64,000 bases of DNA from an uncultured Acidimicrobiaceae bacterium (GTDB taxonomy: Bacteria > Actinomycetota > Acidimicrobiia > Acidimicrobiales > UBA10347): NCBI GenBank assembly GCA_905182135.1, contig CAJJAG010000002.1, positions 124,001-188,000 on the forward strand, in the 5' to 3' direction. Shown one piece after another: positions 38,397 through 41,880 of the stretch. Position 1 is the stretch's first letter. Each line of letters starts with the position of its first letter. The notes beneath the pieces were generated by a model. That model saw only the letters and a list, made by a program, of their open reading frames with translations. It did not search any database and was not told the origin of the DNA. Both the position numbers and the translations under genes were made by a program.

Positions 38397-39541
38397 GTGG
38401 GACTGCGCTCGACGCGTTAGCAGTACCTGAGTTCCGTCGTCTCTTTATCGGCACAGCACTATCCAACGCTGACAGGTGGACACAGACTGCAGCCCTTGGT
38501 GTTCTGGGATGGGAACTGACCGGCTCTAGCGCCTTCTTGGGCGCAATTATTTTCGCCCAGCTTCTTCCTCTCGGTGTTTTTAGCCTGTTGGCCGGTTCGC
38601 AAGCCGACACAGTTGACCGACGCAGGCTTCTGCTCATCTACCAAAGCTGGCAGATGGTATGGGCGTTCGTGCTTGCGGTCTTGCTGATCGACGGCGATAT
38701 CGATCCTGCTGTTTTGCTATCCATCGTCTTCGTTATTGGACTAGGCCAAGGTCTGTACGAGCCTGCACCGACCTCTGTGATCCCTGCCATCGCAGGTGAA
38801 CCCAACCTGTCGGCCGCTATTGCATTGAACTCAATGCAGACAAACGGCACCCGTATCGTGGCCCAGCGATTGGCGGGTTTCTGGTAACCAAGTGGGGTTA
38901 TGCCGAGGTCTTTACGATCAAAGCCGCCAACTAGCTATTCGTGCTAATCGCTATCTATCGGGCCACCATCCCTCCGGGCACATGCACGACCCGTTCCTGG
39001 TGAGAACGTCTACCCGGTGGATTCACCGTCGCCTTCAAGGCTCCCCAAGTCAGTCGCCCCTTGCTGCTCATGGGTTTATTCACCTTCTTCTGCCTGCTGT
39101 TCATCGGCCAGCTTCCGGTCATCGCCGATGTCCACCTGGGTGTGGATCCCAAGAGCACGACCTACGGCTGGATATACGCCGTGTTTGATCTCGGCGGACT
39201 CACCGGTGCCTTTCTGATCGGGACAGCGTTTCTGCGGCCGCCTTCGCCTCGAATCGCCCCCGTCAATCTGGCAGCATTCTCGGCATCGCTTGCGTGGCTC
39301 ACGCTCGTACGCAGCGTTGGCTGGGCCTTTGTCGCGATCTATCTGGTTGGCTTGTTCTATTTCTCGCTACCAACAGCGCTCGCGACCGCATGGCAAGAAC
39401 ATGTTGACTCATCGATCCTTGGTTGCGGCGTTGTGGGTGCTGGCATTTGGCGGAACGATTCCGTTTGCAAACATCATCGTGCGGTTTCTGAAAACCCGCC
39501 GGCCTGCTGGTTCCGCCGAGTGGTTTAGCGTAAATACCTGA
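38397..39541 (+). pseudogene. Decayed MFS transporter gene
   Basis: Fragments of one 12-helix MFS protein lie in order but in different frames. A GTG start region frameshifts before VPEFRRLFIGTALSNADRW; the frame stops at TAA after RLAGFW (38887); TKWGYAEVFTIKAAN ends in TAG; LLLMGLFTFFCLLFIGQLPV reopens near 39061; and a last shift after TAWQEHVDSS moves to ALWVLAFGGTIPFANII. At least four lesions are visible, so the gene is dead. The parent resembles EntS-type (MFS_3) exporters. Confidence 0.85.
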
Positions 39542-39586
39542 CTGGCGCGGCTCGGTAAAGAACATGGCGGAAGGCCAGCCGCGCCT

Positions 39587-39808
39587 ACTACCCCAAACCC
39601 CAAAAGCCCCCGGGACCTCGGACCCATCGAACTCAAACAGGATGAGCAAAGCGAATCCGTACCACCCCAAACCCCAAAAGCCCCCGGGACCTCGGACCCA
39701 TCGAACTCAAACAGGATGAGCAAAGCGAATCCGTACTACCCCAAACCCCAAAAGCCCCCGGGACCTCGGACCCATCGAACTCAAACAGGATGAGCAAAGC
39801 GAATCCGT
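39587..39808. repeat. Three 74-bp tandem repeats
   Basis: Three copies, beginning at 39587, 39661 and 39735, are identical apart from one base (ACTACCCC versus ACCACCCC); a 7-base start of a fourth copy follows and merges with the stop codon of the Nudix gene. Each unit holds CCCCAAACCCCAAAAGCCCC and CGGGACCTCGGACCC. The array lies between the dead MFS gene and the convergent Nudix gene. No spacer-repeat pattern is present, so it is not CRISPR. Confidence 0.92.
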
Positions 39809-39809
39809 A

Positions 39810-40490
39810 CTACCCGGGATCGGTCGCCATGGTGAGCAGCTGACGGAGCATGTTGCCGGTGGCACCCCAAACGGTGTCACCGTAGAGCTCGAAGAACGTG
39901 ACCGGCATAGCCTGCCCGTCGCGCACCCAAATCTCTTCGCGCCATACCTCGTCGAGAAGCAACTCTCGCAGGGTGACGGGCAGAATCACTTCGACCTCGC
40001 CAGGGTTAGGTACCAAATTCTGGGGCGGACCGTCGAGCATGCCTACGTAGGGGTGGACCAAGGACCCGCTGCCCCCGGTGACAAACCAGTCGAGCGCACC
40101 GACCACGGTGACAGAGGAGCGGTCGAGGCTGACTTCTTCTTCAGCCTCGCGCAGTGCCGTATCGATATGGTCAACGTCGGTGTCATCATGGCGGCCGCCG
40201 GGAAATGAGACCTCGTGAGTATGAGCCCGCAGCATTGGGCTGCGTCGAGTCAATAAGACCGTCGGTTCGCCATGATCGACAAACAACGGAACCAAAACTG
40301 CCGAAGTCTTGCCGGTACCTGGCAATCCACGATCAGCAAATGCCGGTTCGTACCGTGCAAGCCGTTCGCTGAGTACGCCGAGATCGACGTGCCGATCGCT
40401 CTCGGGCAAGTGGTTCCAAGGCGGAGGTCCACCTAGTCGCACATCCGCTGGGCGAGGGATCTGTTGAGGACCGCCGCGCCCATTCGGCAC
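39810..40490 (-). CDS. Nudix hydrolase, probable CoA pyrophosphatase
   Basis: A 226-aa Nudix protein. LLTRRSPMLRAHTHEVSFPGG followed by TALREAEEEVSL is the NuCoA plus Nudix-box arrangement of enzymes that split CoA or acyl-CoA into phosphopantetheine and ADP. I chose the GTG at 40490, just after the stop of the upstream gene; the frame is open to 40553, where it would overlap that gene. Its stop codon lies at the edge of the 74-bp repeat array. Confidence 0.8.
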   Translation of the reverse strand: MPNGRGGPQQIPRPADVRLGGPPPWNHLPESDRHVDLGVLSERLARYEPAFADRGLPGTGKTSAVLVPLFVDHGEPTVLLTRRSPMLRAHTHEVSFPGGRHDDTDVDHIDTALREAEEEVSLDRSSVTVVGALDWFVTGGSGSLVHPYVGMLDGPPQNLVPNPGEVEVILPVTLRELLLDEVWREEIWVRDGQAMPVTFFELYGDTVWGATGNMLRQLLTMATDPG

Positions 40491-40867: not shown

Positions 40868-41476
40868 ATGGGTGCCGTGGCAGGTAGAAGGACGGTAAAG
40901 GTTGCAGCACTCGTAGCCGGAATAATTCTTCTGCTGGCTACCTGCAGCACCGGTGATGTGCAACTTGGCACCACGGATGAGCCAGCAACCCCTCCAATCC
41001 AAACACCAGCAGTTACGCCTCAAGTACCAGAGCCCACGGCTTCGCCTGTACCCACGGCTACACCTTTATCCACGGCCGTCCCGCCAACACCTGAGGCAAC
41101 CGCTACGCCTCTACCCACGGCCGTCCCGCCAACACCTGTACCCACGGCCACACCTATACCCCCGACGCCAGAACCGACACCTGAGGCAACCGCTACACCT
41201 GTACCCACAACCACACCTATACCCCCGGCGCCAGAACCCGGGATCGACGGTGCAACCATCTTCGCTGGCTCATGTGCATCCTGTCATGGCGCGGACGGAA
41301 CAGGCATCAATAATTGGCCAGATATCAGTTCGATCGGACAGTTCTTCACCGACGATGCGTCACCACTGATCGGTCTAGTAACCAACGGCAGTAAAAACAT
41401 GCCGTCGTTCGCTGCCTCGCTGACCGCCGACGAGATAGCTGCCGTCGTACAATACGTTGTGGCTACATTCCAGTAA
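40868..41476 (+). CDS. Lipid-anchored cytochrome c-type protein
   Basis: A 202-aa lipoprotein with lipobox LLATC (C26), a long linker of Pro/Thr repeats (about 40-120; units like TATPLPTAVPPTP) and a C-terminal class I cytochrome c domain. The heme motif is CASCH (C136, C139, H140) and the axial Met is M178 in NGSKNMPSF. It would carry electrons on the outer face of the membrane. The frame is open to 40520, but the ATG at 40868 opens the signal peptide. The redox gene that follows starts 26 bp after its stop. Confidence 0.85.
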   Translation: MGAVAGRRTVKVAALVAGIILLLATCSTGDVQLGTTDEPATPPIQTPAVTPQVPEPTASPVPTATPLSTAVPPTPEATATPLPTAVPPTPVPTATPIPPTPEPTPEATATPVPTTTPIPPAPEPGIDGATIFAGSCASCHGADGTGINNWPDISSIGQFFTDDASPLIGLVTNGSKNMPSFAASLTADEIAAVVQYVVATFQ

Positions 41477-41502: not shown

Positions 41503-41880
41503 ATGAATTGGGGCACCCTCTTCATTATCGCTCTGAGTCTTGGCCTTGTGTTCCACATGAATCGATCGAACAAGACGACGGCAGTTGTGACAACAGAACA
41601 TCCAGCCCCTATTCCTGTAGATGCCATCGAAGCCATCGAATACTTCTGGCGGCCTGGTTGACCATTCTGCGCCAGGCTCAGTTCGGGCCTTGCATCAGCT
41701 GGTATACCGGTGAACGAACGCAACATCTGGGAGAACCCCGAAGATGCCGACATCGTTCGCTCGATCGCCGACGGTAACGAGACCGTTCCAACCGTCATTG
41801 TTGGCCCTATCGGCATGGTGAACCCCAGTGTCAAACAAGTACAAGACGCGCTGCACCAGCACGCTCCTCACCTGCTTTAA
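41503..41880 (+). CDS. Membrane-anchored glutaredoxin-like selenoprotein (TGA = Sec)
   Basis: A 126-codon gene interrupted only by an in-frame TGA at 41659-41661 (codon 53). The product has an N-terminal membrane helix (about residues 4-18), a short linker and a glutaredoxin domain: YFWRPG-U-PFCARL, then NIWENPEDADIV, NGNETVPTVIV-type DGNETVPTVIVG and MVNPS. In homologous actinobacterial glutaredoxins the TGA position is the first Cys of CPxC. With selenocysteine the active site is UPFC. A SECIS-like hairpin follows. The alternative is a simple nonsense mutation of that Cys, but the frame is otherwise intact to the TAA. Confidence 0.75.
41671..41693 (+). promoter_or_regulatory. Putative bacterial SECIS element
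   Basis: AGGCTC (41674-41679) pairs with GGGCCT (41685-41690), with one G-U pair, around the loop AGTTC; G71-C93 and C72-G92 extend the stem past one mismatch. The loop starts 19 nt after the TGA and has G as its second base, which fits the published bacterial SECIS model (loop 16-37 nt from UGA, G in the first two loop bases). Confidence 0.65.

Follow-up and report, generated by a model that had tools for sequence, protein, structure and literature searches.

A probable selenocysteine-containing, membrane-anchored glutaredoxin of the mycoredoxin type in an uncultured Acidimicrobiales bacterium

Glutaredoxins that carry selenocysteine (Sec) are an established selenoprotein family (PMC13188914, PMC9312934 and PMC1794560), and examples of PF00462 proteins with a UxxC motif come from Clostridium oremlandii and Geobacter sulfurreducens (PMC13188914 and PMC1794560). 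A 2006 survey places glutaredoxin selenoproteins in Geobacter, Alkaliphilus and Moorella. Uxx-star (NF041212 and relatives) is a small glutaredoxin fold whose active site begins with Sec, as is predicted for the protein described in the present paper.

The window analysed here, i.e. the whole stretch of 64000 nucleotides, lies on contig C2 of a metagenome bin (eight contigs, 2.36 Mb, 60% complete and 1% contaminated). The relatives of the bin that carry names are uncultured Acidimicrobiales, among them L073 from Acidimicrobiaceae UBA10347. A sequence-only reading had proposed a membrane-anchored glutaredoxin selenoprotein in this window, in a frame from 41503 to 41880 broken by one TGA, and these coordinates proved to be exact: the frame runs from an ATG at 41503 to a TAA at 41878–41880, and the TGA at 41659–41661 is the only in-frame stop between them. 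Reading through this codon gives a product of 125 amino acids (MNWGTLFIIALSLGLVF...YFWRPG-U-PFCARL...HAPHLL). Ordinary gene finders would truncate or drop such a gene, because one ‘stop’ codon is read as selenocysteine. The features of the gene and its predicted product are as follows.

41503–41880, plus strand: Sec-glutaredoxin gene, 125 amino acids, with UGA predicted to be decoded as Sec53 in a GUPFC active site.
41506–41556, plus strand: N-terminal membrane segment (NWGTLFIIALSLGLVFH), predicted from hydropathy and followed by R and K residues.
41635–41853, plus strand: glutaredoxin/mycoredoxin domain, residues 45–117, assigned with TIGR02200, PF00462 and Mrx1 (2lqo).
41659–41661, plus strand: TGA as the putative selenocysteine codon, where homologues have the first Cys of the active site; it recurs in genomes G001, G003, G005, G133 and G234.
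Peptides of the product: YFWRPGUPFCAR, spanning residue 53, and NIWENPEDADIVR, after residue 53.

The domain assignment was examined with profile and structural comparisons. PF00462 (Glutaredoxin) matched at 45.5 bits (8.8e-12) against a gathering cut-off of 22.9, which places the protein in this family. The best NCBIfam model was TIGR02200 (actinobacterial mycoredoxin), which covered residues 45–118 with an E-value of 2.6e-18 and scored 66.2 bits, below its curated cut-off of 89.5, and by these scores the protein is mycoredoxin-like and stands outside the TIGR02200 equivalog. It also falls outside NF041212 (Uxx-star), with 37.1 bits against a cut-off of 66. The best PDB match was Mycobacterium tuberculosis Mrx1 (2lqo), with a sequence E-value of 5e-6, and the AF2 model (mean pLDDT of 79) displays a Grx/Trx fold that Foldseek aligned to Mrx1 with an rmsd of 1.6 over 77 columns.

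We collected 97 distinct homologues and found an exchange of TGA and Cys at the codon in question, with TGA in six and Cys in 91, in keeping with the earlier claim that the TGA occupies the place of the first Cys of the glutaredoxin site. The six TGA-containing genes have intact frames and come from six genomes of three families; neither frameshifts nor random stops were seen in the relatives that carry the TGA. Within the genus the same codon is TGA in G001 (GUPFC) and in G003 and G005 (both GUPWC), and the anchored protein of G002 has Cys instead (GCVAC). Beyond the genus, G133, from a different family (UBA9382), retains Sec in a GUPFA motif, with Ala in place of the second active-site Cys, and G234, from a distant family, has GUIYC. 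The G133 gene (L033, 1301–1645) apparently encodes two membrane segments at its N-terminus. Such recurrence bears on the possibility that the TGA is an assembly or sequencing error, i.e. a single misread base in a Cys codon (TGC or TGT) of a metagenome bin; as the same TGA is present in five other independently assembled genomes, we regard this as extremely improbable.

Some further stops lay within homologue matches. Those that we resolved, in G002 (TAG), G214 (TGA), G074 (TAG), G342 (TAG) and G637 (TGA), were all outside the active site, where Cys was present, and were rejected as candidates; the matches in G141 and G226 also contained stops. Unannotated plasmid matches from Streptantibioticus and Nonomuraea were also rejected as missed Sec genes, since both have Cys at this position (PLSDB lists few genes on these plasmids), and a search of viral contigs for relatives returned none.

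The region after the TGA was then compared between pairs of Sec genes. Between our gene and its closest homologue, from G001, dN/dS was 0.071/1.42 (approx. 0.05), with 7, 4 and 34 changes at the first, second and third codon positions, and between G003 and G005 it was 0.124/1.78 (approx. 0.07), with 11, 5 and 40 changes. As judged from these substitutions, the sequence after the TGA is under strong purifying selection. This is the principal evidence against the view that the gene is decaying and the TGA a nonsense mutation, for which the context offers two arguments, namely a broken MFS gene nearby (38537–39525) and a second paralogue in the same genome, soluble and of the Cys type (C4:395232), which is also found in five of the five same-genus genomes. 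A dN/dS value of approx. 0.05 after the TGA excludes a decaying gene, and the presence of TGA at the identical codon in all six genomes, which span three families and show no further lesion in the gene, together with the Sec machinery described below, leaves this explanation with next to no probability.

The dead MFS gene mentioned by the sequence-only reading is real, although it has no bearing on the Sec-glutaredoxin gene. It lies in pieces in different frames, and an open homologue of 425 amino acids occupies the same place in G005 (L162); just after it is a tandem array (39586–39815) of approx. three copies of a 74 bp unit that are 98% identical. The gene immediately upstream of the Sec-glutaredoxin gene is listed here.

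40868–41476, plus strand: upstream neighbour, a proline-rich repeat with a class-I/cbb3-type cytochrome c domain (PF13442, 1.6e-12); the start codon is approximate.

The repeat in the linker of this protein (41045–41208) is rich in proline and threonine and has periods of 45 and 90 bp. A cytochrome c gene is also found upstream of the Sec-glutaredoxin gene in G003 and G005, which describes the neighbourhood only and implies no functional link. In G005 the order is cystathionine β-synthase, cystathionine γ-synthase, MFS, NUDIX hydrolase, a small ORF, cytochrome c, Sec-glutaredoxin and groEL; G003 keeps the part from MFS to glutaredoxin, and G001 keeps the NUDIX gene, the small ORF, the glutaredoxin gene and groEL. 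Judged by gene order, the Sec-glutaredoxin locus is conserved in the genus.

In a tree of the homologues, which rests on few columns and has many weak forks, five of the Sec forms cluster (94/82), and their neighbours are Cys forms that belong to other families. The G234 protein stands apart on a long branch, and therefore the Sec/Cys label would have changed at least twice.

The same genome encodes a Sec decoding machinery. On contig C6, selA (315 bits) is directly followed by selB (278 bits), and a tRNA-Sec reached 69.7 bits (gathering score, 47) and was called tRNA-SeC(tca) by ARAGORN; these are three of the four genes that the earlier proposal had named for a check. In addition, the formate dehydrogenase α (FdhA) gene on contig C3 is interrupted solely by a TGA in the catalytic site (NRT-U-HAP), and on this evidence FdhA is a second predicted Sec client of the genome. 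We did not find selD in this bin, and its absence is weak evidence against Sec usage because the bin is approx. 60% complete; it is present in four of the five same-genus genomes (G001, G002, G004 and G005). Two types of selD occur within the order: the genes of G001, G343 and G375 have no internal TGA and score approx. 266 bits, against approx. 360–380 bits for the TGA-containing selD of most relatives.

These findings also bear on whether UGA is reassigned or leaky, with another tRNA inserting Trp or Cys, for example, and no involvement of selenium. Such decoding would also explain the selection through the TGA. However, homologous genes in G001 and G005 end in TGA as an ordinary stop, the TGAs that are read through are at redox active sites (in the glutaredoxin, FdhA and the SelD of relatives), and SelA, SelB and tRNA-Sec are present, so that we hold reassignment to be very unlikely.

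Decoding of UGA as Sec would call upon the following element downstream of the codon.

41674–41690, plus strand: candidate SECIS apical hairpin, a 6 bp stem (AGGCUC at 41674–41679 and GGGCCU at 41685–41690) with the loop AGUUC at 41680–41684.

A stem-loop with this loop had been noted 12 nt after the TGA, with its loop at the distance expected for a bacterial SECIS, and both statements hold: the stem begins 12 nt, and the 5 nt loop exactly 18 nt, after the TGA, and +18 is also the position of the GGUCU loop of E. coli K-12 fdhF and of the 5 nt GGUCU loop, on a 6 bp stem, in the FdhA gene of the same genome. An RGUY loop at +18 on a stem of at least 5 bp was present in all four same-genus Sec-glutaredoxin genes and in none of the 91 Cys homologues. 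By chance, this geometry arose in 0.8–2.6% of synonymous recodings per same-genus gene and in <1% for our gene, percentages that serve as a guide rather than a blind test because the RGUY motif was defined after the glutaredoxin and FdhA loops had been seen; firmer sequence evidence for a putative SECIS comes from the contrast with the Cys homologues and the agreement with fdhF. The stability of the hairpin is ordinary, with 58% of synonymous recodings of our gene folding equally well, and in five of the six Sec genes it was no better than that of recodings, and free energy was thus not used as evidence. The exception is G234, whose hairpin differs and is much stronger, with its loop at +21 (1% of recodings were as stable). 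In G133 the loop is GGUCG at +18 and the stem has a C–A mismatch. Most stem pairs are invariant among four to five sequences, and an Rfam scan of the window gave no match.

The membrane anchor that had been proposed is consistent with both the hydrophobic N-terminal segment found by hydropathy and the helix at residues 3–24 of the AF2 model. By the same simple hydropathy test, an N-terminal membrane segment is present in all six Sec forms and in only one of the 91 Cys homologues, that of G002 (Fisher P=7e-9). We take this contrast as a strong hint and not as a census, given that hydropathy is a crude criterion, that the Sec forms are interrelated and that the homologues were gathered by domain similarity. 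According to the positive-inside rule, the positive residues after the helix make a cytoplasmic glutaredoxin domain the most likely topology. On balance, and with some reserve, we favour the view that Acidimicrobiales possess a distinct subfamily of mycoredoxins that depend on selenium and are tethered to the membrane, in which Sec and the anchor go together and in some members of which (GUPFA) Sec would be the sole redox residue of the motif.

The Sec machinery, the conserved UGA, selection through it, the SECIS geometry, the fold and the hydrophobic anchor can all be read from sequence, and the selenoprotein interpretation is supported by selA, selB, tRNA-Sec and FdhA of the genome itself, by the TGA/Cys exchange and by purifying selection after the TGA. 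The best explanation as a whole, which we consider very probable, is a Sec-encoding UGA, decoded with SelB and the hairpin, in the gene of a tethered glutaredoxin of the mycoredoxin type. The ribosome would read UGA 41659–41661 as selenocysteine, with SelB and its Sec-tRNA-Sec being brought in by the hairpin that lies 18 nt downstream, and the product would be a small mycoredoxin-type glutaredoxin held by one N-terminal helix, most likely with the catalytic domain facing the cytoplasm. We infer that Sec53 acts as the nucleophile of the GUPFC site and that it may attack mixed disulfides (mycothiol being the probable partner) or other oxidized groups of membrane or membrane-near proteins, which would amount to disulfide reduction at the inner membrane face. 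The Cys three residues after Sec53 is probably helpful rather than essential, because one relative has GUPFA. Sec53 would then be reset by a low-molecular-mass thiol, probably mycothiol. MshC-like matches of approx. 410 bits in G002–G005, below the curated cut-off of 485, suggest that mycothiol is present in the genus; the only MshC-type match in our own bin reached 279 bits and falls in the CysS-like size class.

Searches of the open-licence literature for selenocysteine together with mycoredoxin or Acidimicrobi, mainly by titles, abstracts and term counts, gave no paper describing such a protein, and a limited search of that literature yielded no account of a Sec-glutaredoxin that is membrane-anchored and of the mycoredoxin type. 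The gene is real, was probably overlooked by annotation and does not represent a new principle. It would add to the selenoproteome an actinobacterial, membrane-anchored member of the mycoredoxin type from uncultivated Acidimicrobiales, and the link between Sec and the anchor, together with a GUPFA motif that lacks the second Cys, would offer a natural test of what Sec contributes to glutaredoxin chemistry. In comparison with the described systems, the protein resembles known Sec-glutaredoxins in having Sec in place of the first Cys of the UxxC active site, and differs from them in being actinobacterial, of the mycoredoxin type and equipped with an N-terminal membrane anchor, and in the motifs GUP[FW]C, GUPFA and GUIYC. 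Five of the six members of our group retain the second Cys, which sets them apart from Uxx-star, and the mycoredoxin model fits far better. Finally, whereas Mrx1 has Cys in its active site (WCGYC) and consists of the domain alone (92 amino acids), the protein described here would combine Sec with a membrane anchor.
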